Shown here: in pieces, positions 4,516-46,905 of the stretch
Layout of the letters: the number at the start of each line of letters is the position of its first letter
Numbering within the stretch: the stretch's first letter is position 1
DNA from: Gloeobacter violaceus PCC 7421
Lineage (GTDB): Bacteria; Cyanobacteriota; Cyanobacteriia; Gloeobacterales; Gloeobacteraceae
Direction of reading: 5' to 3'
NCBI RefSeq assembly: GCF_000011385.1
Contig: NC_005125.1
Location: 3,968,001 to 4,032,000 of the forward strand
DNA length: 64,000 nt
Notes under the pieces: model-generated
Databases searched by the model: none
What the model saw: the letters and a program-made list of their open reading frames with translations, nothing else
What the model was told of the DNA's origin: nothing
Position numbers and translations under genes: made by a program

Positions 4516-4589
4516 GGCGGGCGTAGCCAAGGGGTTAAGGCAGAGGATTGTGGATCCTCTATTCGTGGGTTCAAGTCCCATCGTCCGCC
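4516..4589 (+). tRNA. tRNA-His (GTG anticodon)
   Basis: A full cloverleaf: acceptor GCGGGCG (4517-4523) pairs with CGTCCGC (4582-4588) with one G-T pair, and the D-arm, a GAGGA/TCCTC anticodon stem with GTG, and a GTGGG/CCCAT T-stem with TTCAAGT follow. The extra G at 4516 opposite C at 4589 is the G-1:C73 pair diagnostic of tRNA-His. The 3' CCA is not encoded. Confidence 0.95.
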
Positions 4590-25796: not shown

Positions 25797-25813
25797 CAAT
25801 CGACATTGCATCC

Positions 25814-26938
25814 ATGGCCGCTGAAGTCAAAAGGATACTCGCAGCTGTTCTCAACTGGAAAGGAGTAGAGGACACAATTCATTGTTTTGAATCATTGTTG
25901 TCGTGTCGCTTGCCCGAGATGGTTCATTTGGAAATCCTCATCATGGACAACGACTCTAGAGATAATTCCTTTGAAATTCTCGAAAAATACGTTCAGAATC
26001 GCGGCGGTACCAAGGTATTCAAGACATACAAGCTCGACGAGTTCGAGAAGGCGGCCGATGTAGGCATGTCGATCTACCTTGTTCAAAACGGTGAAAACTT
26101 GGGTTTCGCAGGAGGTATAAACGTTGCCTTCAACTACGCCTTGAGAAGCAACTTCGACTACGTGCTTCTTGTGAACAACGATGCTGAGATCAAGCCGCAT
26201 AGCCTGTGTGCAGCCCTTGACGCGTTTACCACGGATAAGGATATTGGCGCCATAGCAGCGAAGATTATCGTAGCAGGGACAGCGATTATCGACTCGGCAG
26301 GAGACGGGTGTTTATATCCAGGGAAGTTCTACAAGAGACACCAGGCGGAACCTATGGGATCTGTCACGGCGCGCGAGTCAGTCTTCGGGTTTTGTGGAGG
26401 GGGGGCGTTGATTAGCACACAGATGCTAACTCAGGTGGGGGGATTCGACGAGGATTTTTTTATCAACCACGAAGATTCTGACCTTTCTTACCGAGCGCGG
26501 ATAGCTGGGTACAAAATCTTGCTGGAGCCGGACTTTGTTATTGAGCACAAAGTTTCAAGCTCGATGAGCAAAGCGGGTACCCTTCCGAATTACTACTCTA
26601 TCCTAAATGCCGATCGAGTGTACTTAAAGAATACACCCTGGTTAATCATGGCCCTGACATTTCATGAAAAGCTCTTATACGAGATAATTTCCTTTATGTA
26701 TTGGGTGCTGATATCCAAAAAAATGTCAGTTTACCTGAAAGCAAAGCGTGATTTTTTGTATGGTCTACAAGGGACTTTGCGCAAACGCAAACTGCTACAA
26801 AACCTACGCTGCTGTAACTCGTTCGAGCTATTGATAAATATGGATTCAATACTAAACAGTCCAGCAGCAAAAAAAAGGTTGAGTGATATAAAACTAAGGC
26901 TTCTTGGTGGCAACAGGCATGGACACGCTTTCTTCTAA
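25814..26938 (+). CDS. family 2 glycosyltransferase
   Basis: A 374-aa GT2 protein starting with ATG 17 nt after the kinase stop. The N-terminus AAVLNWKGVEDTIHC leads to ILIMDNDSRDNS and LVNNDAEIKP, the nucleotide-sugar and metal-binding motifs, and FINHEDSDLSYRARIAG gives the catalytic ED region. It resembles rhamnosyltransferase-type GT2 enzymes with a C-terminal amphipathic region. From here on the DNA is visibly more AT-rich than in the left part of the locus. Confidence 0.85.
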   Translation: MAAEVKRILAAVLNWKGVEDTIHCFESLLSCRLPEMVHLEILIMDNDSRDNSFEILEKYVQNRGGTKVFKTYKLDEFEKAADVGMSIYLVQNGENLGFAGGINVAFNYALRSNFDYVLLVNNDAEIKPHSLCAALDAFTTDKDIGAIAAKIIVAGTAIIDSAGDGCLYPGKFYKRHQAEPMGSVTARESVFGFCGGGALISTQMLTQVGGFDEDFFINHEDSDLSYRARIAGYKILLEPDFVIEHKVSSSMSKAGTLPNYYSILNADRVYLKNTPWLIMALTFHEKLLYEIISFMYWVLISKKMSVYLKAKRDFLYGLQGTLRKRKLLQNLRCCNSFELLINMDSILNSPAAKKRLSDIKLRLLGGNRHGHAFF

Positions 26939-27743
26939 AAATTCACCGGAAGGAGGCTACCGTCTAACCCAGACAGTAAAAGCAAGACCTCTAGTAAGCA
27001 TTATCACCGTAGTACGTAACGGCAGAAAAACCCTCGAAAAAACGATTACAAGTGTCATTCAACAAACATCCAATGATCTGGAACACATTGTTCTAGATGG
27101 AGGCTCCAAAGACGGAACAATTGAGTTGCTTCATGACTACAATTCCAGCATTGCCTACTGGCGTAGCGAAGAAGATATAGGGATTTACAACGCTATGAAT
27201 AAAGGGATTGAGTTGGCTTGGGGAGATTGGCTGTTTTTTTTGAACGCAGATGATTTGTTGCATGATAAACATGTAATCGCGGACATCGCACCTCACCTAC
27301 GTGGAGCAGCTGGCTGTGTATTTGGCACTGTGGTCTACGACACTGGAGAAGTTCATATCTCTCACGTCAGCTCTTCCATAAAAATGTATAATACAGTCCA
27401 TCATCAGTCAGCTTTTTACTCAGCACGTTTACTAAGGCAAATGGGGCTGCGTTACGACGAGAAATATGCTATTTGTGCTGACTATGAACTAAACCTAAGA
27501 CTCTGGCTGAACAGCACTCGCTTTGTGCCATTAGAAAGGGTGGTATCCTTCTGCGCCGATGATGGAACAAGCCGCAAAAACCCAATGCGAGCATTTCATG
27601 AGATGCAACTAATCCAAAAGAATGCACTCGGACTGGTTACGTCACTATTGAGCTTCGCACGAAATGTCAGCGTATATTTCCTTATTTCGAGGCAAAAAGC
27701 AAAAATTAGAGCAGTACAGCAACTGTTAAGAAACAAAAAATAG
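26919..27743 (+). CDS. family 2 glycosyltransferase
   Basis: The ATG at 26919 overlaps the previous gene by 20 bp; a TTG at 26904 would add five residues. The 274-aa enzyme shows VSIITVVRNGRKTLEKTI, VLDGGSKDGT and FLNADD, a WcaA-like arrangement common in colanic-acid-type loci, and ICADYELNLRLW as the acceptor-side motif. No TM helix is evident. Codon usage is AT-rich like its neighbours. The transferred sugar is unknown. Confidence 0.85.
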   Translation: MDTLSSKNSPEGGYRLTQTVKARPLVSIITVVRNGRKTLEKTITSVIQQTSNDLEHIVLDGGSKDGTIELLHDYNSSIAYWRSEEDIGIYNAMNKGIELAWGDWLFFLNADDLLHDKHVIADIAPHLRGAAGCVFGTVVYDTGEVHISHVSSSIKMYNTVHHQSAFYSARLLRQMGLRYDEKYAICADYELNLRLWLNSTRFVPLERVVSFCADDGTSRKNPMRAFHEMQLIQKNALGLVTSLLSFARNVSVYFLISRQKAKIRAVQQLLRNKK

Positions 27744-27767
27744 CTCTTCTTCAGAACAGGATGTGGA

Positions 27768-29132
27768 ATGTCGTCAATAAGCGATGCTTTTTCAGCAGCC
27801 AATTGGTTAGGCCGCCAACAATCGTTCAAGGCGATATTAGTATCAATTTTTGGAGCTGTGGTAGCTTTCTACTGGCTGTCTCCTTTCGCGACAGTAGAAT
27901 TTGGTTACGTAAGTGCAATCATTGCTTTGACAATGATTGTTCTGTTTCATCGATTGAATTACTTGCATCCGGTTGTAGCATTTGTCCTACCTTGGCTTGC
28001 AATTGTGGGACTGTCAAGCCTGGATATTAGTATTTACTCAACAATCCCAAATAAGGAGACCTACCTACTCATTCTCACAAATATTTGGTTAGCCTTTTTC
28101 TTCGATATCATTGCCACTTCGACGTTTGGATTGTTTCCAAAAGGTAAGTCGCGGAAGAAAGAGTGGAAAGTAGCGGCCATAAAAAAAGACTGGTTCAGAC
28201 TGTTTGCTTTGCTGTTCTTCTTGCTGACTACCGTAAACATTGCAATCGCTGGATATATTCCCCTTGTCAAGGGTATCACCGAAGGAGATACAGGTTACTT
28301 AAGCTTCGGAGTTAACGGGCTTTACGGTTTTTACTGTGCGTACGCGAATGCGTTTGCCCTCCTTGCTTTCTATACGTATTTGCTTACAGGGAAGAGAGGC
28401 TATCTTGTATTTTTTGCTATCGTCATTTTTACTTTTGTTCTATTTGTGACACGGCAAAATGTTTTGTCGTTGATTGTTGAGGCAATAGTTCTCTATGGAA
28501 TTGTAAAGAAACCCATACCCTTGACACGTATTGTGCTTCTTTCGGCGGTCTTCCTTGTAACTTTTTCGGTTCTTGGCGATTTTCGTAGTGGCGACATCAA
28601 GGTTCTTGCGGGTATTAAATCCGAGTACCAGTTTATTCCCAATCCATTTGTTTGGTTGTACAGTTACAGCTACTTCAACGTTCTGAATCTCGATAATCTG
28701 ATCAATTTGTCCCAGGCACCGTACTTTGATGGAACTTCAGTAATTAATCTGATCCCGTCGTTTTTGCGACCGTCGATTGTACGGGAGAGCTATCTGGAGG
28801 TAATTTACTTCAATGTTTCTTCCTATCTGTTTCCAGTCTATTACGATGCCGGTTATACCGGGACATGGCTGCTGACTGGTGGGGCGATTTTTTTAACGGT
28901 CAGGTACTACCGCCGAATCCAAAACTCACCTTCATTCACCGAACTTGGTACGTTCGCGGTTCTTTACTTCTGCGCTTTGCTTTCGTTCTTTGTTAATTTT
29001 TGGTTCTATCTACCGATCATATTTCAGGTCGCTATTTTTAGAATATTGTCGCTGAGCCTTCGTTACGAAAAGCTGAGTCCAAAGGTTCTGTCTGGGCAAG
29101 ATCGATTCGTTGAAGGAGCTAGAGTGACATGA
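27768..29132 (+). CDS. O-antigen/exopolysaccharide polymerase-like membrane protein (Wzy-like)
   Basis: A 454-aa polytopic protein with about 11 hydrophobic segments, starting QSFKAILVSIFGAVVAFYW. A large loop around residues 285-350 (NVLNLDNLINLSQAPYFDGTS) follows several TM helices, as expected for the periplasmic loop of Wzy-type polymerases. Such proteins are poorly conserved, so topology and its place between glycosyltransferases are the evidence. It has no recognisable catalytic motif that I can name. Its stop overlaps the next start (ATGA). Confidence 0.7.
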   Translation: MSSISDAFSAANWLGRQQSFKAILVSIFGAVVAFYWLSPFATVEFGYVSAIIALTMIVLFHRLNYLHPVVAFVLPWLAIVGLSSLDISIYSTIPNKETYLLILTNIWLAFFFDIIATSTFGLFPKGKSRKKEWKVAAIKKDWFRLFALLFFLLTTVNIAIAGYIPLVKGITEGDTGYLSFGVNGLYGFYCAYANAFALLAFYTYLLTGKRGYLVFFAIVIFTFVLFVTRQNVLSLIVEAIVLYGIVKKPIPLTRIVLLSAVFLVTFSVLGDFRSGDIKVLAGIKSEYQFIPNPFVWLYSYSYFNVLNLDNLINLSQAPYFDGTSVINLIPSFLRPSIVRESYLEVIYFNVSSYLFPVYYDAGYTGTWLLTGGAIFLTVRYYRRIQNSPSFTELGTFAVLYFCALLSFFVNFWFYLPIIFQVAIFRILSLSLRYEKLSPKVLSGQDRFVEGARVT

Positions 29133-30430
29133 GTAGTAAAAGAGCGATTTCGTGGATGTTTGTCTTTCTGTTGATGCTACTAGTCGTTTCCGAACGGTCG
29201 TTCAGTCAAACAACCCAAACCGAGGCGTCTCCAGAGGATTTTGGGGCGGCCGGTGATGGCGTCAAAGATGACACTACAAGCCTCCAAAAGGCTTTGCAGT
29301 CGGGCAAAAATATTGTACTGAAGAAAACTTACTTTACGAAAGACCTAAACGTTACCACCGCGAACCAGAAGATCTTTGGTGGCGGCAAACTGGTAGCTGC
29401 TCCTGGGACTGAGGCGCTACTTTCGATTCGGGCGCCTAACGTTGCCATCGAAGGCATAAACTTCGTTTTTAGTAACCGCAAAGTAAAATACGGTATCGTC
29501 ACTTCTGCCCCAGGCACCCGAGTAACCGGCAGTTCTTTTTCTGGCGATATTGGTCACTACATCCTGGGCAACAGTGCCACTGGGCTTACAATCTCTCGCA
29601 ATGTTTTTAATGGAGCGGGTTCTTCCCAGGGTGCACCCGTAGAGGTTAGCGCAGTTAAGCAGTTCTCCGTCATTGAGAATCAATTTAAGGATGTCACCGG
29701 ATTCAATCTACAGACACGTTGGTCCCAAGACGGCGAAATTCTGAGAAATAACTTCATTAACCCCAGTCATGTTTCGACGCTTACTGCTGTGCAAGGCCAA
29801 TCCACCTTTGAATTTTCCTTGCCCTACCCCACTGCCAGGCAAGGAATACGGCTCAACGACAAAGTCGTGCCTCCCCAGGGAGGCGTTCTGGGAGGCACAG
29901 TTTTTGCAACTGTGAAGGGTACCGGTAATAAGCGCACTGTTACTCTCGTTGATCGGCAGGGACAGCCCTACCCTTCGCAAGCTGGTGATCGTGTGACACT
30001 CGTGGGCTGGCGCTCTCTCGAAAATATCAATATCAATGCTGGCACATCGAGAGTAAAAATAATGGGAAACACGATCGATGGTTCGGGTGATGGAGGCATT
30101 GTAATTGCAAGTGATTACAATGTTCGACGCATTTTGGATCCCAAAAACCCAGCCGATTTCCCTCAAGACATTCTGATAGAGGGTAATAAGATCCGCAATA
30201 TCCACGCCGAAGGAATCGGAGTTCTATTCTCGAAATCTGAAGGCATTGTTATCCGCAACAACCAGATCGAAGACTGTGGACAAAGCCTTGGTGGATTTTT
30301 CTCGTCTTGTATTTTTCTAGCAGCTGACAATGTTCGACTGGAAAACAACGGCTGTCGGAATACATCTTCCGGCATCACTCTTTACAAAGTTTTCGTCAGT
30401 AAGTCTCCACAAAAGTCTCAACGTCTTTGA
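29129..30430 (+). CDS. secreted right-handed beta-helix (pectate-lyase-3-like) protein
   Basis: A 433-aa protein with a strong GAAGGAG site 10 nt before the ATG. A signal peptide (residues 1-26, cleavage near SFSQ) precedes SPEDFGAAGDGVKDDTTSLQKAL, the usual start of the Pectate_lyase_3/GH28-like fold. Short beta-helix rungs such as VKIMGNTIDGSG and IVIRNNQIEDCG follow. Proteins of this type in capsule loci cleave or modify the exported polysaccharide, or anchor it. After GITLYKVF the last dozen residues (VSKSPQKSQRL) no longer look like helix rungs, so the end may be truncated. Confidence 0.78.
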   Translation: MSSKRAISWMFVFLLMLLVVSERSFSQTTQTEASPEDFGAAGDGVKDDTTSLQKALQSGKNIVLKKTYFTKDLNVTTANQKIFGGGKLVAAPGTEALLSIRAPNVAIEGINFVFSNRKVKYGIVTSAPGTRVTGSSFSGDIGHYILGNSATGLTISRNVFNGAGSSQGAPVEVSAVKQFSVIENQFKDVTGFNLQTRWSQDGEILRNNFINPSHVSTLTAVQGQSTFEFSLPYPTARQGIRLNDKVVPPQGGVLGGTVFATVKGTGNKRTVTLVDRQGQPYPSQAGDRVTLVGWRSLENININAGTSRVKIMGNTIDGSGDGGIVIASDYNVRRILDPKNPADFPQDILIEGNKIRNIHAEGIGVLFSKSEGIVIRNNQIEDCGQSLGGFFSSCIFLAADNVRLENNGCRNTSSGITLYKVFVSKSPQKSQRL

Positions 30431-30464
30431 GGAAACTGATACAGGGAACTGATCCATTTGCTTG

Positions 30465-30500
30465 CGAGTAAGTGCCTGCATGTCCGTAGACACTTACTCG
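30465..30500. repeat. 10-bp perfect inverted repeat in the beta-helix/glycosyltransferase gap
   Basis: CGAGTAAGTG at 30465-30474 is answered by CACTTACTCG at 30491-30500 around a 16-nt loop. It is 35 nt past the beta-helix gene and 41 nt before the next ATG. The run after it (TGATTTG) is not a convincing T-tract, so it could be a weak terminator or an RNA processing hairpin. Confidence 0.55.
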
Positions 30501-30540
30501 TGATTTGTCGAATGTTTGCTACCAACACACGTGAGTTTTG

Positions 30541-31377
30541 ATGAGCCGTCAGCCGTCGCTTCAGATCGAGCCTTTCAAAGAGATAACTTTTGTTATCGTC
30601 ACCTATAATTCTGCGAAGACACTGACCGATTCGATCGAGTCTTGCCTGCAGACAATCCACCATCATTATGGATCGAGAGGCAGGCTTGTTGTTGTAGACA
30701 ATGCATCGCTTGACAGCTGCTCTTTGATTGTCGATCACTACCATCGAGCCTATCCAGACATTTTTATCGGGATCAATTCAAGTAACAACCTTGGGTTTGG
30801 CAAGGCCAATAATCTTGCCGTCGAGTACTTTCCAAGCCAGGTATACGCTCTTATCAATCCAGACGTTGTTTTTCAACCGGAGACCATTCTAAAGCTTCAC
30901 GGTATTCTAGTCGCGTCGAGAGATGTAGCAATTGTCTGTCCGAAATTGCTCTATCCTGACCATACTGTCCAGCCTTCAGTTCGAACTTTTCCGACTTTTA
31001 CTTACTTTCTGCTGCGCAGCCTTATCGGTGAAAAACTTCAGCGTAAACTTTACTCCTTCAGTTATTATTACGAGCACTTATACAACTTTGAAATACCCTG
31101 TGAAGTGGATTGGGGCATTGGCGCATTTATGATGGTTTCTGGAGACTACATTTCAAAATACGGTCTTTTCGATGAGCGATTCTTTCTATATTTTGAAGAT
31201 GTCAATCTTTGCTTGAATGCCTGGAGAAACGGGTTTCGGGTTTTGTTCGATCCCCAGGCAACAGCTATACACAAGTATCAGAGAGCCAGTACTCGCTCGC
31301 CGTTCAACTATTTGAGATTATTACATACTGTGTCCGCGTTTAAATTTTTTACAAGGCACCCCGAACTACTGTACTGA
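30541..31377 (+). CDS. family 2 glycosyltransferase, rhamnosyltransferase-like
   Basis: A 278-aa GT2 enzyme; a TTG directly before the ATG could also initiate. Features are ITFVIVTYNSAKTL, VVDNASLDS, the acceptor text NNLGFGKANN, LINPDVVFQP as metal motif, and FLYFEDVNLCLNAWRNG as the catalytic acidic region. This pattern is typical of WbbL/RfbF-like rhamnosyltransferases. It is the last rightward gene of the AT-rich segment; downstream the strand switches. Confidence 0.85.
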   Translation: MSRQPSLQIEPFKEITFVIVTYNSAKTLTDSIESCLQTIHHHYGSRGRLVVVDNASLDSCSLIVDHYHRAYPDIFIGINSSNNLGFGKANNLAVEYFPSQVYALINPDVVFQPETILKLHGILVASRDVAIVCPKLLYPDHTVQPSVRTFPTFTYFLLRSLIGEKLQRKLYSFSYYYEHLYNFEIPCEVDWGIGAFMMVSGDYISKYGLFDERFFLYFEDVNLCLNAWRNGFRVLFDPQATAIHKYQRASTRSPFNYLRLLHTVSAFKFFTRHPELLY

Positions 31378-31494
31378 ACCGATTTCTGATGGGTAGTGAG
31401 CAGCCCGATGCAACTTGCCGATAATCCTTCTTTTAATTCTCTTTGGGGGTGTGGCCTGCGCTGAAGAGATTGTTGCCGACTTGGCGTGTCCAGT

Positions 31495-32928
31495 TTAATA
31501 GGCGTCCTCGGGGTGGAACACTACTTGCAAGGCCGTAACCAAAATAATGCGCAAATCAAGCAGCAGCGACCAGTTTTCAATGTAATAAAGGTCGTAGCGC
31601 ACCCGATCGGGAATCGAAGTATCGCCGCGCAGGCCGTGGATCTGCGCCCAGCCGGTAATCCCCGTCTTGGCCAGATGCCGGTCGGGGTACTTGGGAATGT
31701 CCTGGCTGAAGCGTTCGACATAGATAGGCCGCTCGGGTCTGGGACCAACCAGGCTCATCTCGCCCACTAGTACGTTCCAAAGTTGCGGCAATTCGTCGAG
31801 GCTGGTGCGCCGCAAAAACGCTCCCACCACTGTGCGGCGCGGATCGTCGCGGGTCGTCCAACCTGGTCCTTGCCCCTCGGCACCCTCCCGCATCGTGCGG
31901 AACTTATAAATCCAGAACACGGCCCCGTCGCGGCCGATGCGTTCCTGCTTGTAGAACACCGGTCCCGGGCTGCTGAACTTGACCGCCGCAGCGATCAGCA
32001 CCAGCAGAGGAGCCCCGAGTACCAGGCCGAACCCGGAGAGCACAATGTCCAGAAATCGCTTGGTAAAACGATTGGAGGCACGTCTGAGCGGCGTATCCTG
32101 CAGCGTGAGCAGCGCCGTTCCCCCTAGCACATCCACCTGCATACGGGCGGTCACATACTCGAGAATGCCAGGCACCAGCCGGATCTGCACCGGCCGCACG
32201 GCAGTAATTACCTGCAACAGTTCAAGCAGCTGCCTGCGTGGGTAGTCGGGCAGCGCCACCCAGACTTCGGCCACCTCGTGGGTTGTAAGGTAACGTCCCA
32301 ACGTCGCGACCGAGGCAATCACCTCACCGCTTGCGGCCGCCGCCTCAGGCTCCTCGGCCACCAGACCGACCAGATGTAGACCCCACTGGGGATTCATCGC
32401 CAGCAACGCCTTGAGCGATTCGGCCGGTGCTCCGGTGCCGACGATGAGGACCGGCTGCAATCCGAAGCCGCGCCCCCGGAGGCTGCGGTTGATCTGCTGC
32501 AGCGCCAACCGCCCCGCCACGATCGACACCGCCGCCACTGCCCAGGCATAAAGCAGCACGAAGCGCGAAAAAGAAGCCTCGCGGAAGAAAAACACCCCCG
32601 CCACCACGATCGCAAAGGCGAGCACAAGACCGATGAGTGCCTTGGCCACTTCGTCGAAGCGCGACTGATAGCCCGGTGCCCGGTACAGGCCTGAAGCGGC
32701 AAAGACCAGCAGTGTGGAAATCACGCTAAATTGCGCGAGCGCCCAATAAAATTCCGGTCCGTACAGCGTATTGGGACTGGAGGCGCGTACTTCGTAGGCC
32801 ATCCAGTAGGCAAACAACACCGATAGTGCATCCCAACAAAGGGTCGAGACGACAATGAGTACAGTCAGTCCGTTCGCCAGACCCTCCAGCCAGGGCCGTC
32901 CGAAGCGGGGTACGGTTTGTTGGCGCAT
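31495..32928 (-). CDS. undecaprenyl-phosphate sugar phosphotransferase (WbaP/WcaJ type)
   Basis: A 477-aa polyprenol sugar-1-phosphate transferase. Four N-terminal TM helices (residues 20-130) lead to a CoA-binding-like Rossmann domain ([15 protein letters not shown]) and then to the bacterial-sugar-transferase catalytic domain with [36 protein letters not shown] and VGPRPERP. It transfers a sugar-1-phosphate from a UDP-sugar to undecaprenyl phosphate, the first committed step of repeat-unit synthesis. It faces the rest of the locus and is GC-rich, so it may be the older initiating enzyme. Confidence 0.93.
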
Positions 32929-37846: not shown

Positions 37847-38272
37847 TCAGCAAGGCAGAACCTGCAAATAGCCCTCCTGGGCATAGGCGAGGATCTTGGC
37901 ATCTCTTGTGGCCAGTGCGATGTTCTTCACCCGGGCGCAAGCGACCAATATCCGATCCGCCGGATCGCCGTGAAACTGGCCCGGCAGTTCGGCCGCCTCC
38001 ACCGCTATCTGGGCAGACAGGTCCAGCACAGACAGACCGGGAGCACTCAGGGATTGGGCTATCCATTCCTGACAGGGCATCCCCAGGTGGACGCGACCCC
38101 GAGCAGCCAGCATGGCGACTTCCCAACAGGTGATCGGCGACACCCGCAGCCCCCCCGACGCGGCGGCGGATGCAAGGGTTCGTACTGGAGCCTCCTTAAG
38201 GTGCGCGCAGCCGAGCATTAACCACAAAAAAACATGGGTATCCAACAAATACCCCTTAATCATGTTCGGCAT
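37847..38272 (-). CDS. PIN-domain ribonuclease toxin (VapC-like)
   Basis: A 141-aa PIN protein. The four acidic active-site positions are visible: Asp in YLLDTHVFLW, Glu in ITCWEVAML, Asp in GDPADRILVA and Asp in LATRDAKIL. These match the common bacterial PIN family acting on tRNA or mRNA. It overlaps the antitoxin by 17 bp; an inner ATG at 38263 would shorten it by three codons. It probably cleaves RNA when its partner is degraded. Confidence 0.88.
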   Translation of the reverse strand: MPNMIKGYLLDTHVFLWLMLGCAHLKEAPVRTLASAAASGGLRVSPITCWEVAMLAARGRVHLGMPCQEWIAQSLSAPGLSVLDLSAQIAVEAAELPGQFHGDPADRILVACARVKNIALATRDAKILAYAQEGYLQVLPC

Positions 38273-38498
38273 CCCATGGACCCCCGATGGGAGCCTCGAT
38301 GTCGCCCCGGATGACCCCCGTGCCGGCCATGAATCCGAAGACCGACGGTGCTTCTGCCGTGAACGGGACCAGCTTCGCCACCGGCTTGCCCCGCTTGGTA
38401 ATCACCACTTCCGTGCGCTCCTGCTCGACTTGATCCATCAGTTTCAGGCACCGGGCCTTAAAGTCGGCCGCAGAAATTTCTTCGGGGGTGCGCGCCAT
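38256..38498 (-). CDS. Phd/YefM-type antitoxin
   Basis: An 80-aa antitoxin with an AGGAGG site 6 nt before the ATG. The N-terminal Phd/YefM DNA-binding fold is seen in ISAADFKARCLKLMDQVEQ and VVITKRGKPVAKLVPF. The C-terminal part, ending GDIEAPIGGPWDAEHD, should wrap the PIN toxin. It and the toxin probably repress their own promoter through the palindrome at 38521. The order antitoxin then toxin is standard. Confidence 0.88.
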   Translation of the reverse strand: MARTPEEISAADFKARCLKLMDQVEQERTEVVITKRGKPVAKLVPFTAEAPSVFGFMAGTGVIRGDIEAPIGGPWDAEHD

Positions 38499-40005: not shown

Positions 40006-40145
40006 CGTCCCCCAAGATACTCGTTGTCTAAGTTCAATAATGCGCCGCGGTCAGATCTGTAGGCGCGGTAATTCTACGCGATCACTCGCCGATTTCGCTC
40101 GATGAATCGGCAGTGGGAATCGCTCTGCGAAGGAGAAACAATCGA

Positions 40146-41870
40146 ATGACTCGACTCAATTCCCACGCCTTGCGCTTGGTGGGTCTGGCGGCGCTGCTTG
40201 CCACCGCCGGAATCTTTGCAAAAGCGATGGATATCAGTGCGCAACCGCCGTCCCCCGCGCGGCAAAGTGCCGAAGCTGAGGAGGCTGAACCTGCGGAAGT
40301 TCTAGTTGGCGAACGGCTATTTGAAGAGACGCGATTCGCTCAGTTTTATTTTGCCAATAGCGGCGGGGATGCCAATGCCGAGCCGTTGCCCGGTGGCGGC
40401 GATCCGGTGGTGGCGACCCTGATGACCCCCGACGGACCGATTGCCGGTCCCTTCGCAGGTAAATCGATGAGTTGCAGGCAATGCCATCTCGAATCGCAGG
40501 CCGCCGAGACCCCGGGCGGCGGGTTTCGCACCTACGCCGATTTCGCCGTGCGCAGCCCCGTGCCGGACCGGGGGGACGGCGAGAAGGTCACCGTCCGCAA
40601 CAGTCCCTCCCTGGTCAATCTGGCCCTCAACACCACCGCCCCGGCGGAACTTTATCACTTGGACGGCCAGTTTCCGAATCTGGAGAAACTGGTGGCCGAT
40701 ACCCTGACGGACCGCAACTTCGGCTGGAAACTCACCGAGCGCCAGGCCGCCATCCGCCACGTCGCCTCGATCGTCCGCAACGACAACGGCCAGGGCGAAC
40801 TTGCCCAGCAAAACGGCGGGGCCTACGCGCTGGTATTGGCCGGCAAGAGCCCCGATCCGCGCTTCGTGCTGCCGGAGTCCTACCGCCTCGATGTCGCCAG
40901 AGCGACCGACGAGCAGATTCTCTACGCGGTCGGCCGGTTGATGGCGGCCTACATGGATTCGCTGTTCTTTGCCCGCGACGAAGAAGGGGCCTTCGCAGGT
41001 TCGCCCTACGACGTGTTCTTGCAAAAGAACGGCCTGCCGCGCCGGCCCGCCCCCGGCGAATCGGACCTTGCCTACAGCCGCCGCCTGCGGGGGCTTCTCG
41101 CCAATCTCAAGCAGCCGCGCTTTGTGACACCCGCGGACGGCGCTTTTGAGCTGAGCGATCAACCCTTTGCCTTTGGGGCGCAGGAACTGGTCGGCTTGCA
41201 GATCTTCCTGGCCGAACCGCAGGGCCGCGCGGTCGGTGCCACGGAGTTGCAGCAGGGAAAGGTGGGCAACTGCATGGTCTGCCACGTAGCACCCAAATTC
41301 ACCGACTTCAGCCTGCACAACACCGGGGCCAGCCAGCAGGAGTACGACGACGCCCACGGCGAAGGGGCCTTCGCCAATCTGCCGATCCCTGCACTCAAGG
41401 AACGCAACACCAACTACGACGCCTATTTGCCCCCGACCTCCCTTCACCCCAACGCCTCGGGTGTCTTTCGCAAGCCCGCCGACTCGGCCAACCCGGCCCT
41501 GGCGGATCTCGGAGCCTGGAACGTCTATCTCAATCCCGATTTCAAGGTGCCCCCCGAGAAGCTCGAAGCACTGATGGGGTTGGCTAAAGTGCCCAATAGC
41601 GGTAAAGACGCCGCCCTCACCCAGTCCCTCGGCCGCTTCAAGACTCCGGGCCTCAGGGATCTGGCGGACTCGGCTCCCTACCTGCACAACGGCAGCAAAG
41701 GCACGCTCGAAGAAGTCGCCGAATTCTATCGGTCGTTCTCGCAAAAGACCCGTGCCGCTCAAGTGCGCAATGCCGATCTCGAAATCGGGCGCATCGCCCT
41801 GGTGCAGGACGATGTGGCGGCGCTCGCGGCCTTTATGCGCTCGCTCAAGGAGGATTACGGCCTGGACTAG
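40146..41870 (+). CDS. di-heme cytochrome c peroxidase-like (MauG/CcpA superfamily) secreted protein
   Basis: The ATG at 40146 (GGAG site upstream) gives 574 aa with a signal peptide to about residue 28. Two haem motifs are present, CRQCH at 110-114 and CMVCH at 376-380. LYHLDGQFPNLEKLV and the C-terminal FKTPGLRDLADSAPYLHNGS resemble the bacterial di-haem peroxidase domain. It should act in the periplasm, reducing H2O2 or oxidising a protein or organic partner. It is longer than ordinary CcpA (about 330 aa), with a large insert between the haems, so it belongs to a divergent branch. Confidence 0.87.
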   Translation: MTRLNSHALRLVGLAALLATAGIFAKAMDISAQPPSPARQSAEAEEAEPAEVLVGERLFEETRFAQFYFANSGGDANAEPLPGGGDPVVATLMTPDGPIAGPFAGKSMSCRQCHLESQAAETPGGGFRTYADFAVRSPVPDRGDGEKVTVRNSPSLVNLALNTTAPAELYHLDGQFPNLEKLVADTLTDRNFGWKLTERQAAIRHVASIVRNDNGQGELAQQNGGAYALVLAGKSPDPRFVLPESYRLDVARATDEQILYAVGRLMAAYMDSLFFARDEEGAFAGSPYDVFLQKNGLPRRPAPGESDLAYSRRLRGLLANLKQPRFVTPADGAFELSDQPFAFGAQELVGLQIFLAEPQGRAVGATELQQGKVGNCMVCHVAPKFTDFSLHNTGASQQEYDDAHGEGAFANLPIPALKERNTNYDAYLPPTSLHPNASGVFRKPADSANPALADLGAWNVYLNPDFKVPPEKLEALMGLAKVPNSGKDAALTQSLGRFKTPGLRDLADSAPYLHNGSKGTLEEVAEFYRSFSQKTRAAQVRNADLEIGRIALVQDDVAALAAFMRSLKEDYGLD

Positions 41871-41882
41871 GGGCAGGAGCGC

Positions 41883-43418
41883 TTATTTCAGCCGGCCGGC
41901 CGGTTGCTCGTCGACGAGCAACCGGCCGGTGGACAGATCCCGCACCGTCACCCGCAGCGTGCGGGTGCCATCGACGGCGAAGCGCACTTCCAAGCGGTCC
42001 ACCCCAGCCACCCCGGGCGGATCGAGGGTGAAATTCACCTGATTGCGTTTGCCCAAAGGCCGGAAGCTGCCGTCGGCACTGCCTGGGCGGGTGCGCAGCA
42101 TGCCGGCGGCATCTTCGTAGACTTCGGTGGTCGTCCCGGCGCTCAATTCGCCCAGGACCAGGCTCACCTCCTTCTGGCCGGCGGCGTTGGCCTGCAGCAA
42201 AATCGGTTCGCCCGCCACCGGGTAGGGGGTGCCGCCTGTGAACAGGGGCAGGTATTCGTAGGCCTTGGCATAGGGATTCCAGTGGCGCAGGGCGTAGGTG
42301 TGGCGCAGGTGGTCCTCCACCGCGCCGTAGCGCGCCAGGGTGAGCGCGCCGTGGGCCACCGCCTCAAAGGGTTTGCCGAACCGGACTTTCTCGCGGCCGA
42401 ACAGGCCGATTAGCTGCTTGCGGACCGCCGGGATCAAGCCGGTGCCCCCCACCAGCACGACGTGGGCGATCTCCTTTTTGGCCACCCCCCGGCCGTAGGC
42501 CTGATCGAGCACTTCGTCGACCGCCTCGCGCAGGCGATCCAGGAGCTGTTGCCGCTCCAGGATCGCCTCCAGGCCGTCGCGATCGAGGCGCAACTCGTGG
42601 GTCTCGAAGCTCTGCTCGTCAAACCAGCTCTCGGCGGCGAAGCGCTGAGCGGAAAGCCGGATCTTCACCGCTTCGGCTACCAGGAGCAAATTCTGCCAGG
42701 CGGTTTCGCCGATACTGCGGCGGGTAAGACCGGCTCTATCCAGATAATCCTCGGCGATCCACTGATCGATATCGGCGCCCCCGCAACCCCAGGGCCGGTC
42801 GGATTTGGCGATCACCTCCGCCCGTTGCTCGCGCGCTCCTGTGGGCAGGGGGCTTGTGCGCACCAGCGAGAGATCGAGGGTGCCGCCGCCTAGATCGACC
42901 ACCAGCACCAGCGCTCCCGGCGCCTCGATGGCGTACCCCAGCGCCGCCGCCGTCGATTCGTCCACCACCAGCGGCTCGGGAAGGGCAAGCCGGAAGCAGG
43001 CTTCGCGCAACCAGTTGAGATAGTGTTCGTAGGCCCCGACCGGTGCGCTCAAAATCAGTTGTGAAGGCAGGACGCCCTGGGCGTTGAGGGCGGCGTACAG
43101 ACGATCCAAAAAGATTTCGCCCACCCGCGCCGAGGTGTAGCTCGCTCCGTCCACCAGCCGGGGCGAGGGTTCGAATTCCTGGGACAGGTCGCGCTTGAAC
43201 CCTCGAAAGAGCCGGCTTTTGTCGGTGGCGGCGGCGGCCGGCCGGCCGATGAGCGCTTCGCCCCGGCTGTCGATATAGACCGCCGAGGGCACCAGGGGCG
43301 GTCCGCCCGGGTAGTGGGCGCTAAACGGAAAGACGAGGGTTTCGGGGGTGCCCCTGGCCCGGTTTTCGAGGCATACCACCGTGTTGGAGGTGCCGAAATC
43401 GACGGCGACGATGCTCAC
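41883..43418 (-). CDS. short Hsp70/DnaK-like chaperone
   Basis: A 511-aa Hsp70-family protein with a GTG start that overlaps the preceding TGA. ATPase signatures are intact: VAVDFGTSNTVV at residues 4-15, LVVDLGGGTLDLSLV, and HVVLVGGTGLIPAVRKQL. After about residue 370 comes a reduced beta-sandwich-like substrate domain, and the helical lid and EEVD-like tail are absent. A 34-bp perfect palindrome lies in its last codons. In this operon it sits last after a GrpE-like protein, suggesting a specialised chaperone pair. Confidence 0.9.
   Translation of the reverse strand: MSIVAVDFGTSNTVVCLENRARGTPETLVFPFSAHYPGGPPLVPSAVYIDSRGEALIGRPAAAATDKSRLFRGFKRDLSQEFEPSPRLVDGASYTSARVGEIFLDRLYAALNAQGVLPSQLILSAPVGAYEHYLNWLREACFRLALPEPLVVDESTAAALGYAIEAPGALVLVVDLGGGTLDLSLVRTSPLPTGAREQRAEVIAKSDRPWGCGGADIDQWIAEDYLDRAGLTRRSIGETAWQNLLLVAEAVKIRLSAQRFAAESWFDEQSFETHELRLDRDGLEAILERQQLLDRLREAVDEVLDQAYGRGVAKKEIAHVVLVGGTGLIPAVRKQLIGLFGREKVRFGKPFEAVAHGALTLARYGAVEDHLRHTYALRHWNPYAKAYEYLPLFTGGTPYPVAGEPILLQANAAGQKEVSLVLGELSAGTTTEVYEDAAGMLRTRPGSADGSFRPLGKRNQVNFTLDPPGVAGVDRLEVRFAVDGTRTLRVTVRDLSTGRLLVDEQPAGRLK
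41896..41929. repeat. 34-bp perfect palindrome within the Hsp70 3' end
   Basis: The two 17-bp halves match without a mismatch around the centre GTC/GAC at 41912/41913. It covers codons for GRLLVDEQPAG near the Hsp70 C-terminus and lies 26 bp from the convergent cytochrome stop. There is no T-tract on either side, so it is not a standard terminator. Confidence 0.9.
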
Positions 43419-44062
43419 GATCCGCTCCCCGCGGGCAACGTCCGGCTCACCTTCGCCCGGCAGAGCACCTCCGCTTGGTCCCGGTAGCCCAAAAAGCGCA
43501 CGTAGACGGTCTCGCCCGGTGCGATGTCCGCCGCGTCCGGCAGGTGCAGCTCGGGATCGAAGGCCACCGGCTCCCAGACAGCACCGATAGGTTCGAAGCC
43601 CCAGTCGGCCAGCAGGCCCTCCAGCGGCGAGAGCAAGCGCAGGGCGCCCGCCGCTCCCAGCGTCGGGTTGCCCTGGGCGGCCCGCCTGAGGGTCGGCGCC
43701 TGGATGAGCAGCGGCAGCAGCCGTTGGAGAGTTTCACGGCGAAAATGCGCTTCTGCCACCGCCTGCTGCGCTTCGAGCTGTTTCTGCAGCCGCAGGCATT
43801 CTGAGCGCCATTGCCCGCACTCGCGCTCGGCACGGCTCTCGAGGTGTACCCCTGCGAAGGTCTGCAAAAAAGCCGCCGGCTCCACCTCCAAACAGGCGGC
43901 AAGCTTTTGGGCCGTCTCCACCCTGAGCCGAAAGGCTTCTCCCCGGCGCACCGCACCCACCGCCGCGGGCGACACCCCGGCCTGCCTGGCCAATCCCCGC
44001 CAACTGCCGATCCCCACCGCCTCCATGAAGCTGCGCAACAGCGGTTCGCAGTGCTCAGGCAT
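43415..44062 (-). CDS. HTH domain fused to a GrpE-like nucleotide-exchange region
   Basis: The ATG at 44062 (MPEHCEPLLRSFMEAV) gives 215 aa. Residues about 14-66 form a Cro/C1-type helix-turn-helix (WRGLARQAGVSPAAVGAVRRGEAF). A coiled-coil follows (SECLRLQKQLEAQQAVAEAHF). The last 90 residues end in VAFDPELHLPDAADIAPGETVYVRFLGYRD and VLCRAKV, which parallels the beta-domain of GrpE (FDPxxH, GYxxxxxVLRPAxV). It overlaps DUF2997 by 8 bp and the Hsp70 gene by 4 bp. I infer a dedicated exchange factor for that Hsp70, with possible DNA or peptide recognition by the HTH. Confidence 0.75.
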   Translation of the reverse strand: MPEHCEPLLRSFMEAVGIGSWRGLARQAGVSPAAVGAVRRGEAFRLRVETAQKLAACLEVEPAAFLQTFAGVHLESRAERECGQWRSECLRLQKQLEAQQAVAEAHFRRETLQRLLPLLIQAPTLRRAAQGNPTLGAAGALRLLSPLEGLLADWGFEPIGAVWEPVAFDPELHLPDAADIAPGETVYVRFLGYRDQAEVLCRAKVSRTLPAGSGS

Positions 44063-44258
44063 GGCCCTGGTCGAGTCGGCGTTGCACCTCGCCTTCGAGG
44101 GGCGGCGCACCGTCGCTCTCGCGCCGTTCGATCCGACCCAGGGCGGCCTCAAGCTCAGCGGTTATCTCGGTGCAGTGCCCGCCTTCGACGCCGCTGACCC
44201 GCTCGGTGATCTTGCCGTCTTTGCCGATGACGTACTCGATGCGCTGGTACTCGGCCAT
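44055..44258 (-). CDS. DUF2997 small protein
   Basis: A 67-aa protein whose ATG overlaps the Ycf35 stop (ATGA). The first half, QRIEYVIGKDGKITERVSG, and GxxCxEIT (GGHCTEITAELEAALG) match DUF2997. This domain almost always lies beside DUF1257/Ycf35, which supports the call. The single Cys could bind metal or a partner. Function is unknown. Confidence 0.85.
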   Translation of the reverse strand: MAEYQRIEYVIGKDGKITERVSGVEGGHCTEITAELEAALGRIERRESDGAPPLEGEVQRRLDQGHA

Positions 44259-44632
44259 CACGCCCACCTTGCGATCACGACGCGCACCTCGCCCGCCTCG
44301 CCCACCTGCTCGCTTTCGACCGTAAAGCCCTGGGCGGCGGCCGTTTCGATAAGCACGTTGCGGGCGTAGCGCTGGCGGATAGGTGCAAGCAGCCGCTCGG
44401 CGCTGCTGCCTACACCCCAGAAGTCGGCCACCATCTCCAGGTGGTCGCCTACCCGGCGAAAGCCGATGTCGTAGCCGCCGGGGCGGCGCACGACCAGATC
44501 GGCGCGGGTGGTCTCGCCCTTGTAGCCGCGCACGGCGGCGTCGAGGGCGACCGTAAAGCCCAATTGCTCAAGGGTGGCCTTGAGGACGGCGCGGTTTTTC
44601 AGTTCGAGGCGGACGGTGGTGAAGTGGGACAT
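44258..44632 (-). CDS. ycf35: Ycf35/DUF1257 family protein
   Basis: The ATG at 44632 (MSHFTTVRLEL) gives 124 aa, the usual Ycf35 length. The start, NRAVLKATLEQLGF and the final TVESEQVGEAGEVRVVIAR fit the family known from plastid genomes and cyanobacteria. Its function is unknown. It lies 13 nt after the Ycf46-like gene and is translationally coupled to DUF2997. Confidence 0.88.
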   Translation of the reverse strand: MSHFTTVRLELKNRAVLKATLEQLGFTVALDAAVRGYKGETTRADLVVRRPGGYDIGFRRVGDHLEMVADFWGVGSSAERLLAPIRQRYARNVLIETAAAQGFTVESEQVGEAGEVRVVIARWA

Positions 44633-44645
44633 GTTCCGGTGTCGC

Positions 44646-46256
44646 TTATCCAAGGTCAGTGTCGTCGATTTCGAGCGCGTCGAGGCCGCGGCGGGCGGCG
44701 ATGGCCCGGATTTCTTGGCTCAGCTCGGTGTCGATCGAGGCGGTGCGCGCCCCCGATTCGGCGGCCCAGCGCTTCAATTCGGCGATCTGTTCGCGGGCGA
44801 TCGAAGCGAGGGGCACGCTCTGCTCGACACTATGGAAGATATCTTCCATCGAGAATTCGCGGCTCGGGCTGCTGTTGTAGGCCAGATGCATCGCATCGAC
44901 GATCGCCTGCTCGATTTCAGCACCGCTGAATTGTGGGGTGTGGCCGGCCAGGGCCACAAGGTCAAATTCGCGCAGGCGCTGGGGTCTGAGGCGCTCCAGG
45001 TGCACCCGGAAGATGGCCTGGCGCTCGGCGGTATTGGGCAGGTTCAAGAAAAAAATCTCGTCGAAGCGGCCCTTGCGCAAAAATTCCGCCGGCAGCACCC
45101 GGACGTTGTTGGCGGTGGCGACGATGAAGACCGGGGCGGTCTTCTCCTGCATCCAGGTCATCAGGCTGCCGAAGACGCGCTTGCTGGTGCCCGAATCGCC
45201 CGCGCCGCTCTCGCCCACCCCGCCGAAAGCTTTATCCGCCTCGTCGACCCAGAGCACGCAGGGGGCCATCGCCTCGGCAATCTGGATCATCTGGCGCACC
45301 CGCGCCTCCGATTCGCCCACCAGGCCGCCGAACAGGCGCCCGGCATCGAGCCTCAGTAGCGGCATGCGCCACTCGCAGGCGATCGTGCGCGCCGAGAGCG
45401 ACTTACCGGTGCCCTGGATGCCCACCAGCAGCACCCCCTTGGGGTTGGGCAGGCCGTAGCGGCGCGCCCCTTCGCCAAAGCTGCCCCGCCGCTCTCGCAC
45501 CCAAGCTTTGAGGTTTTCGAGGCCGCCGATATTTCTAAGGGAGGCGCGGGCCGGAAAAAATTCGAGTACTTCGCTCTGACGGACGTACTGTTTTTTTTCT
45601 TCGAGCACCAGATCGATGTCCGCTTCGCTCACTTTTTCGCGCTCGGCGAGGGCGCGGGCGAGGATGCGGCGGATGCGCGTGCGGGTGAGCCCCAGGCAGG
45701 CGCGCACCAGTTGCTCCTCCGCCAGTCCCTGGAGGGTGAGTTGCGCGGGCGGCACGGCGGCTTTGAGCATTTTGCGGATTTCGGCGGGGCCGGGTAGGGG
45801 AAAGTCGATGACTACCATCTCCTCGCGCAATTCGGCGGGTACCGCCGCCGTGTGGCTGAGCACGATGACCGTCTTGCGCTTGTCTTTGAGATCGATGGCG
45901 AGCTTTTTGAGGGCGCGCACCACCGGGTAATTCTGGGCGAGGGTGGGATTGAGCAAAGGCGGGTGCAAGTCGCGCAACACAAAGAGCACCGCTTCGTCCG
46001 GGGCGGCGCGCACCTGCTCCAGCGCCTGGATGGCCGAACCCTTGGCCTGGCCGCTATCCTCCCAACCGGCCACCACGTCCCAGCGGCGGATCTTGCGCGT
46101 TGGCTGCAGGGTGGTCGCCACCTGCTCCAGCACCTCCTCTACCGGTCCTTCCTCCGCCGAGACAATGTAAAGCAGCGGATAACGCGCCCGGATGAGCAGG
46201 CCGAGGTGGGCGGCGATGCCCCCGTAGTCCCAGGCGGTCAAGCGGAGATCGGACAT
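44646..46256 (-). CDS. ycf46: Ycf46-type AAA+ ATPase
   Basis: From the ATG at 46256, 536 aa. An N-terminal half of RarA-like degenerate AAA fold (LYIVSAEEGPVEEVLEQV, VLFVLRDLHP) is followed by a canonical AAA+ module: Walker A GIQGTGKSLSA, Walker B CVLWVDEADKA, and FIVATANN as sensor 1, with a late PQFSGAEIEQAI sensor-2 helix. This is the Ycf46 arrangement. It leads the five-gene operon with Ycf35, DUF2997, HTH-GrpE-like and Hsp70, pointing to a remodelling function. Ycf46 has been linked to CO2-responsive photosynthesis regulation in Synechocystis. Confidence 0.9.
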   Translation of the reverse strand: MSDLRLTAWDYGGIAAHLGLLIRARYPLLYIVSAEEGPVEEVLEQVATTLQPTRKIRRWDVVAGWEDSGQAKGSAIQALEQVRAAPDEAVLFVLRDLHPPLLNPTLAQNYPVVRALKKLAIDLKDKRKTVIVLSHTAAVPAELREEMVVIDFPLPGPAEIRKMLKAAVPPAQLTLQGLAEEQLVRACLGLTRTRIRRILARALAEREKVSEADIDLVLEEKKQYVRQSEVLEFFPARASLRNIGGLENLKAWVRERRGSFGEGARRYGLPNPKGVLLVGIQGTGKSLSARTIACEWRMPLLRLDAGRLFGGLVGESEARVRQMIQIAEAMAPCVLWVDEADKAFGGVGESGAGDSGTSKRVFGSLMTWMQEKTAPVFIVATANNVRVLPAEFLRKGRFDEIFFLNLPNTAERQAIFRVHLERLRPQRLREFDLVALAGHTPQFSGAEIEQAIVDAMHLAYNSSPSREFSMEDIFHSVEQSVPLASIAREQIAELKRWAAESGARTASIDTELSQEIRAIAARRGLDALEIDDTDLG

Positions 46257-46417: not shown

Positions 46418-46563
46418 CGGTGCGTTGGACAACCCATGGGTATGTAGCTATGCATATGTATCCACGAGGGTTTCCCGACATGTTCATATCTGTCCTGGGG
46501 GGCATTTTTCCGGTGGGGACGGTTACTATGCTGATTGGGTAGTTACGCATGGACAAGTGCAAT

Positions 46564-46905
46564 ATGGGATGGCTTCAACGTCTTTTTGGCTTGGAAAAAC
46601 CGCAGCAGACCGCCCAGGCACCTGCGCAGCCCGCCCAGACGCCCACCGGTGAGCCGGTGCCGCCGGAGCGCGTCGGTTTGAACGGGGAGTACGATCAAAG
46701 CGGCCTGGCCAAGCGCGTCGCGCTCGCCTTCGACAACGATCCTGAACTTGACGATGTCGACACGCTCTACGTGGCCCAGACGGGCACCACCGTCGTGCTC
46801 AAGGGCAAAGTGCCCAGCCAGGCGATCCTCACGAAGATGGTGACCGTGGCCAAGACCGTCAACGGTGCCACGGCCGTCGAGACCAATCAGGTGACTGTCG
46901 GCTAA
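46564..46905 (+). CDS. BON-domain protein
   Basis: A 113-aa protein from the ATG at 46564 (MGWLQRLFGL); an ATG five codons earlier is an alternative. A Pro/Gln-rich linker (about 12-40) precedes a BON domain: LAKRVALAFDNDPELDDVDTLYVAQTGTTVVLKGKVPS and then VNGATAVETNQV. BON domains bind membranes or phospholipid and occur in OsmY-like proteins. No signal peptide is seen, so a cytoplasmic role, as in YgaU/LysM-BON relatives, is likely. Confidence 0.78.
   Translation: MGWLQRLFGLEKPQQTAQAPAQPAQTPTGEPVPPERVGLNGEYDQSGLAKRVALAFDNDPELDDVDTLYVAQTGTTVVLKGKVPSQAILTKMVTVAKTVNGATAVETNQVTVG

Follow-up and report, generated by a model that had tools for sequence, protein, structure and literature searches.

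A lid-less Hsp70 and a GrpE-like protein encoded with Ycf46, Ycf35 and DUF2997 in Gloeobacter violaceus: a probable dedicated chaperone–remodelling system

A stretch of 64,000 nucleotides (nt) from Gloeobacter violaceus PCC 7421 (NC_005125.1, positions 3,968,001 to 4,032,000, hereafter the window, to which coordinates refer unless another locus or the genome is named) contains five consecutive minus-strand genes that probably encode one dedicated chaperone–remodelling system. In the direction of transcription these are a Ycf46-family AAA+ ATPase, Ycf35 (DUF1257), a DUF2997 protein, a GrpE-like protein with a helix-turn-helix (HTH) and a short Hsp70 that lacks its lid. The association is not confined to this thylakoid-less cyanobacterium, because related loci recur in several families of cyanobacteria, and sets with another gene order are found in several phyla. 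To our knowledge, neither Ycf35 nor Ycf46 has an established biochemical function, despite their retention in many plastid genomes. Their link with Hsp70 and GrpE across several phyla turns this gap into a precise hypothesis, namely that they work with a dedicated chaperone that has its own exchange factor.

Gene order and spacing were read from the sequence, and those given in an initial annotation of the window, made from the DNA letters without database searches, hold base for base. The ycf46 gene (44646..46256, 536 amino acids (aa), ATG start and TAA stop) is separated by a 13-nt gap from ycf35 (44258..44632, 124 aa, with the conserved MSHFT start), which overlaps the DUF2997 gene (44055..44258, 67 aa, with a conserved G-x-x-C) by 1 nt (TGATG). 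The DUF2997 gene in turn overlaps that of the HTH/GrpE-like protein (43415..44062, 215 aa) by 8 nt, and the latter overlaps the Hsp70 gene (41883..43418, 511 aa, GTG start) by 4 nt (GTGA).

The Hsp70 matches PF00012 at 1.5e-26 and consists of a nucleotide-binding domain (NBD) and a substrate-binding beta domain (SBDβ). Its residues 3-499 align with residues 4-489 of the canonical DnaK encoded elsewhere in the source genome (25% identity), and the protein ends where the beta domain of DnaK ends, the last ~150 residues of DnaK, which form the helical lid (SBD-alpha), being missing, as the initial annotation had proposed. The actin-type ATPase domain that characterizes an Hsp70 is present with its phosphate and adenosine motifs intact (DFGTSNT, DLGGGT and DESTAAA). 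The VLLLDV linker of DnaK is replaced by a subfamily signature, D-x-L-x-H-x-Y-x-x-R (42285..42314, minus strand), which the DnaK of the same genome lacks but 99 of 105 family members share. Since the lid is missing and the linker signature is different, the protein represents a subfamily of Hsp70 and not a DnaK.

The HTH/GrpE-like protein of the window, taken on its own, remains below the Pfam cut-off for GrpE. A profile of its family (an alignment of 59 rows) matches GrpE proteins in the Protein Data Bank (PDB; 4ani and 3a6m at 6e-9, 8gb3 at 5e-7), and relatives in the same gene context exceed the cut-off of 25.8 bits by themselves (L050 with 28.1, L128 with 30.2, L172 with 27.4, L139 with 32.2 and the plasmid-borne L120 with 43.5, whose record calls the gene grpE). 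An AlphaFold2 model (pLDDT 92, pTM 0.61) shows an HTH bundle (about 44047-43892, minus strand, as are the following parts), a single long helix of residues 62-131 (about 43879-43670), small helices and a beta domain of residues 156-206 (about 43597-43445). The best solved matches of the model in Foldseek are GrpE chains (1dkg, from a complex with DnaK, 3a6m from Thermus, and 9bls), and the HTH half matches the folds of C.BclI and HigA, which rank after GrpE. By its modelled fold, with long helix, small helices and beta domain, and by its family profile the protein is thus of the GrpE type.

Besides one canonical GrpE (164 bits), the source genome encodes at 386932-387525 a second HTH/GrpE-like paralogue, so the window protein has to be seen as an extra factor. 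HTH families match it below threshold, and above threshold in the paralogue (L039) and in an orthologue (L042). The N-terminus is variable in the group of loci described below as set B: the window protein and L042 have the HTH, and most other members carry a hydrophobic segment, which resembles a membrane anchor, sometimes together with an HTH. Because this segment joins or replaces the HTH in most relatives, the protein is not defined by its HTH, and a reading in which the HTH forms the core of the protein was rejected.

The Ycf46 protein matches PF00004 at 1.1e-28 and, in addition, AAA_lid_3. With its Walker A (residue 279) and Walker B (337) motifs, an arginine-finger motif of the RxGRFDE type (394) and homology to cyanobacterial Ycf46 along its length it is a Ycf46 AAA+ ATPase, as initially annotated. 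Among solved structures, the closest AAA domains belong to proteins of the Cdc48/p97 type (NVL at 4.5e-48). The window copy shares 54% identity over residues 14-509 with a paralogue in the same genome, which is putatively the plastid-type ycf46. For the N-terminal 235 residues no solved relative was found by sequence, and their reading as a degenerate AAA domain was dropped. A further Ycf46 paralogue, paired with a DUF1257 gene of its own, was observed in the source genome and other cyanobacteria (L081, L214, L219, L223). Both ycf46 and ycf35 are kept in many red algal plastids (PMC5940233), and in Synechocystis loss of Ycf46 (slr0374) reportedly lowers the activity of the carbonic anhydrase EcaB and affects the use of CO2 (Jiang et al., 2015, as cited in PMC7496141).

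The identities proposed for the two small proteins are equally borne out, with matches above cut-off to PF06868 (DUF1257, 1.8e-29, 102.4 bits) and PF11211 (DUF2997, 1.1e-15, 57.6 bits). The model of the DUF1257 protein (pLDDT 90.7) has no confident solved relative, KA1, TBP-like and helix-grip folds giving middling matches (Z 5-6.5; best Foldseek E 7e-3), and a sequence search against the PDB returned nothing significant. The cysteine of DUF2997 is near-invariant in the family alignment, in which the window protein lacks, at 44055-44120, the LPEYY-type tail that nearly all other set-B copies keep.

Each component was used to search 146 genomes of the phylum, 64 oxyphotobacteria and 82 others; genes at the loci were called by scoring open reading frames with purpose-built profiles, labels of sets were assigned by locus before trees were made, and the neighbourhood tallies measure gene adjacency, not protein interaction. 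Relatives of DUF1257, DUF2997 and Ycf46 occur in 64/64 oxyphotobacteria and relatives of the Hsp70 in 63/64 (at 1e-30), most of the family relatives being dispersed paralogues ("set A"). The Hsp70 scores are bimodal, with at least 427 bits in 14 genomes, including that of the window ("set B", 14/64 oxyphotobacteria), and at most 315 bits in the rest. Among 26 set-B Hsp70 loci, drawn from the survey and from named genomes, a GrpE-like gene is found nearby in 25, DUF2997 in 22, DUF1257 in 14 and Ycf46 in 12, and all four partners are present in 12. Cyanobacterial set-A Hsp70 loci have no partner in 51 of 54 cases; the exceptions are L160 and L164, with only a low-scoring AAA gene, and L195, with DUF1257 and DUF2997 nearby. 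The near-constant adjacency of GrpE-like and Hsp70 genes is circumstantial evidence for the predicted nucleotide exchange on the neighbouring Hsp70.

Neighbourhoods of the set-B type are found repeatedly, in several families of cyanobacteria. In phylogenetic trees set B forms one clade for Hsp70 (support 1.0) and for Ycf46 (0.96) and groups weakly for DUF1257 (0.65) and DUF2997 (0.39); in the tree of the GrpE-like proteins the window and L042 fall outside the set-B group. Among the 64 oxyphotobacteria, the set-B Hsp70 occurs with the set-B Ycf46 in 11 of 14 genomes (p 1.5e-7) and with the set-B DUF1257 in 12 of 14 (p 2e-9), the p-values for co-occurrence spanning 1.5e-7 to 3e-13 with kinship ignored. 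As every protein of the operon has a dispersed paralogue in the source genome, the operon is a second, accessory set beside dispersed housekeeping copies.

The five families are also found together in other arrangements. Examples are GrpE–Hsp70–DUF1257–DUF2997–Ycf46, in the direction of transcription, in L084 (genome G076), GrpE–Hsp70–Ycf46–DUF2997–(radical SAM)–DUF1257 in L078 (G016, from another class of the phylum) and grpE–Hsp70–DUF1257–(two inserted genes)–DUF2997–AAA in L120, on plasmid pPg_01 of Pseudanabaena galeata. A wider scan covered 84,980 species genomes, was anchored on Hsp70 with that of L078 first, and kept the best 80 loci; phylum names follow the record titles, and some contigs are short. 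All five genes are present in 7 of the 23 loci tallied from this branch and from other phyla (L078, L084, L120, the Chloroflexota loci L128, L129 and L131, and L136 of Planctomycetota). Three partners accompany the Hsp70 in five (L133 and L137 of Verrucomicrobiota, L134 and L138 of Chloroflexota, L172 of Acidobacteriota), two in one (L139, Pseudomonadota), one in four and none in six. The idea of a purely photosynthetic system was rejected in view of the complete Chloroflexota and Planctomycetota sets.

Beyond the initial annotation, either the ferredoxin Fed7 or a radical-SAM protein recurs as an additional partner. Genes for the latter (PF13353, PF04055) were found in L078, L128, L129, L131, L133, L134, L136, L137, L139, L142 and L172; in the sets from other phyla such a protein is usually accompanied by one with HEAT and, in many cases, WD40 repeats, and L140 has an FGE-sulfatase gene. 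In the source genome itself a second locus (L079) shows ycf35–DUF2997 followed by the gene of ferredoxin Fed7. DUF2997–ycf35–fed7 is the published cyanobacterial cluster g. In two-hybrid tests Fed7 binds the DnaJ-like Sll1384, and tolerance of oxidative stress and of iron starvation depends on this ferredoxin (PMC4284462). Plants and Thaumarchaeota have fusions of J-domains with a ferredoxin domain whose origin has been traced back to cyanobacteria, and two of three such proteins in Chlamydomonas bind the chloroplast Hsp70B (PMC3564930). A chaperone system that includes Ycf35 would join in one picture these so far unconnected published facts, i.e., Fed7 beside Ycf35, the binding of Fed7 to a DnaJ-like protein and the J-ferredoxin fusions of plants.

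We propose that the Hsp70 would bind a specific rather than a general client through its beta domain; as there is no lid, its grip on this client would be weak, or the client would be held as a folded segment. The GrpE-like neighbour would reset the Hsp70 by nucleotide exchange and might also position it through its own N-terminus (the HTH in the window protein, the hydrophobic segment in the majority of relatives). Ycf46, as a Cdc48-like AAA+ ATPase, could pull on or remodel the client, and DUF1257 and DUF2997 may connect client and ATPase as small subunits, either adaptors or cofactors. Because a Fed7 or radical-SAM gene accompanies the DUF1257/DUF2997 genes elsewhere, a link between the client and an iron–sulphur (Fe–S) or redox protein is probable. 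The initial proposal of a remodelling system with its own exchange factor gains support on the two points at which it could have failed: Hsp70 and HTH/GrpE genes adjoin ycf46/ycf35 well beyond the source genome, in several cyanobacterial families and other phyla, and the C-terminal region of the GrpE-like protein does model as a GrpE beta domain. Physical assembly into one machine, and its clients, are what we infer from sequence.

Several observations weigh against this reading. Some set-B loci hold only DUF2997–GrpE–Hsp70, with Ycf46 elsewhere, so that the five proteins need not form a permanent complex. A GrpE-like gene was not detected in four non-cyanobacterial sets (L133, L134, L137, L140), and the scan that yielded the non-cyanobacterial loci was anchored on the Hsp70 itself and limited to the best 80 matches. 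Small-genome, non-photosynthetic relatives of cyanobacteria, which we take to be gut-type lineages (L093, L094, L096, L097), keep Ycf46–DUF2997–radical SAM without this Hsp70, and their DUF1257 is missing or very divergent; the Hsp70 half is therefore dispensable. Finally, a motif search found no J-domain gene adjoining the sets, none having been sought genome-wide, and its sole J-like match (L103) is not next to an Hsp70.

It is tempting to extend the proposal to an undescribed machine of several phyla, in which Hsp70/GrpE and Ycf46 would serve a radical-SAM or ferredoxin partner via DUF1257 and DUF2997, plastid Ycf35 and Ycf46 being relics of it, though we hold this extension only tentatively. 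Searches of the literature on Ycf46, on DUF1257/DUF2997/Ycf35 and on chaperones with radical-SAM proteins found no description of the set, most subscription papers lying outside their coverage. The Fe–S protein might instead be the centre of a protein-modification or repair system, acting chemically (as radical SAM, or as Fed7 in cyanobacteria) on DUF2997 or on a client that Hsp70/GrpE and Ycf46 present and release. The radical-SAM genes of the eleven loci listed above and of the gut-type lineages, the near-invariant cysteine of DUF2997 and the stress phenotype linked to Fed7 (PMC4284462) would all fit, but set B, including the window, has no radical-SAM or fed7 gene in the operon and no modified product is known; we regard this alternative as possible, if rather doubtful. 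We consider it unlikely that the accessory sets (B, C and D) form a conflict or mobile-element module recruited from housekeeping chaperone genes, e.g., for sensing and remodelling invader or effector proteins. The patchy distribution of set B (14/64 genomes), plasmid copies (the full set in L120, the trio in L124), OLD-type ATPase pairs that match PADLOC candidates within the operon in L120 and L063, and, by reading, a similar pair inserted in that of L053 and an RloA/RloB-like pair beside the operon in L088 make such a role of the accessory sets conceivable, to which can be added that cyanophages carry the DUF2997/DUF1257 pair and that the HEAT, WD40 and FGE partners resemble effector types (PMC7159879). 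As a system, however, the five genes match nothing in PADLOC beyond general AAA/Hsp70 similarity, and the presence of DUF1257, DUF2997 and Ycf46 in all 64 oxyphotobacteria and of ycf46/ycf35 in many plastid genomes gives the core function the appearance of housekeeping.

Two further explanations fare less well. Synechocystis ycf35, ssl1263 and fed7 depend on SigD (PMC8875361) and many kinds of stress elicit a response from the slr0374 (ycf46) operon (PMC7496141), as would be expected of a merely co-regulated stress operon whose products act separately; yet a shared function accounts better than shared timing for the recurrence of these families in varied gene order across several phyla and for their parallel clades, which makes this explanation quite improbable. 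That the HTH/GrpE-like protein represses transcription of the operon instead of acting as exchange factor is suggested by the Cro/C1 type of its HTH and the C.BclI and HigA matches, but is very improbable, because what stays constant in set B is the GrpE half, most relatives lacking the HTH or combining it with a hydrophobic segment, and because adjacency to the Hsp70 is near-universal in the set.

The operon is flanked by genes outside the conserved set, a MauG/cytochrome-peroxidase-like gene (40113..41870, plus strand) convergent with the Hsp70 gene and a BON-domain gene (46549..46905, plus strand) divergent from ycf46. Promoter and terminator searches gave 0 and 3 matches, not above shuffled sequence, and the sole match of an Rfam scan is a tRNA at 4517. 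Elsewhere in the window, G+C falls to 47% at 24001-32000, compared with 60-65% around most of the window, which possibly marks an acquired region, and 37847-38498 (minus strand) likely encodes, by reading only, a PIN-domain toxin with a Phd-type antitoxin. OLD/RloA-type ATPase genes with small partner genes were noted in unrelated cyanobacterial loci (L120:9010-10583, L053:4307-5931, L063:4670-6375, L088:9911-11841); the L120 pair matches PADLOC HEC-02A/B and the L063 ATPase AbiLi/HEC-01/AriA-like models. Overlapping DUF2997–DUF1257 pairs are present in cyanophages P-SSM7 (L125:4772-5384), where the pair lies directly upstream of psbA, and P-SSM5 (L121:4802-5381).

The nearest described gene systems with Hsp70 and GrpE are the GAP1-N2 GTPase conflict systems (PMC7159879), which likewise place both in an NTPase-rich neighbourhood. 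These are centred on a GTPase with FNIII proteins, whereas the window operon has the Ycf46 AAA+ ATPase with DUF1257/DUF2997; none of its five proteins, nor of the five flanking proteins scanned, matches a GTPase family. Cluster g, which the source genome also possesses, shares the adjacent DUF2997 and DUF1257 genes, but fed7 is absent from the window operon, which has Ycf46, Hsp70 and the GrpE-like protein in its place, and the accessible part of PMC4284462 does not link cluster g to Hsp70/GrpE genes. Ycf46 of Synechocystis (slr0374) belongs to the same AAA+ family, while that of the window falls into a distinct, chaperone-linked clade (support 0.96). With the DnaK–DnaJ–GrpE system the operon has in common an Hsp70 with intact ATPase motifs and a protein of GrpE fold encoded by adjacent genes; unlike that system, it has no J gene, its Hsp70 has no lid and another linker, its GrpE-like protein carries an HTH (or, in relatives, a hydrophobic segment), and Ycf46, DUF1257 and DUF2997 are added.

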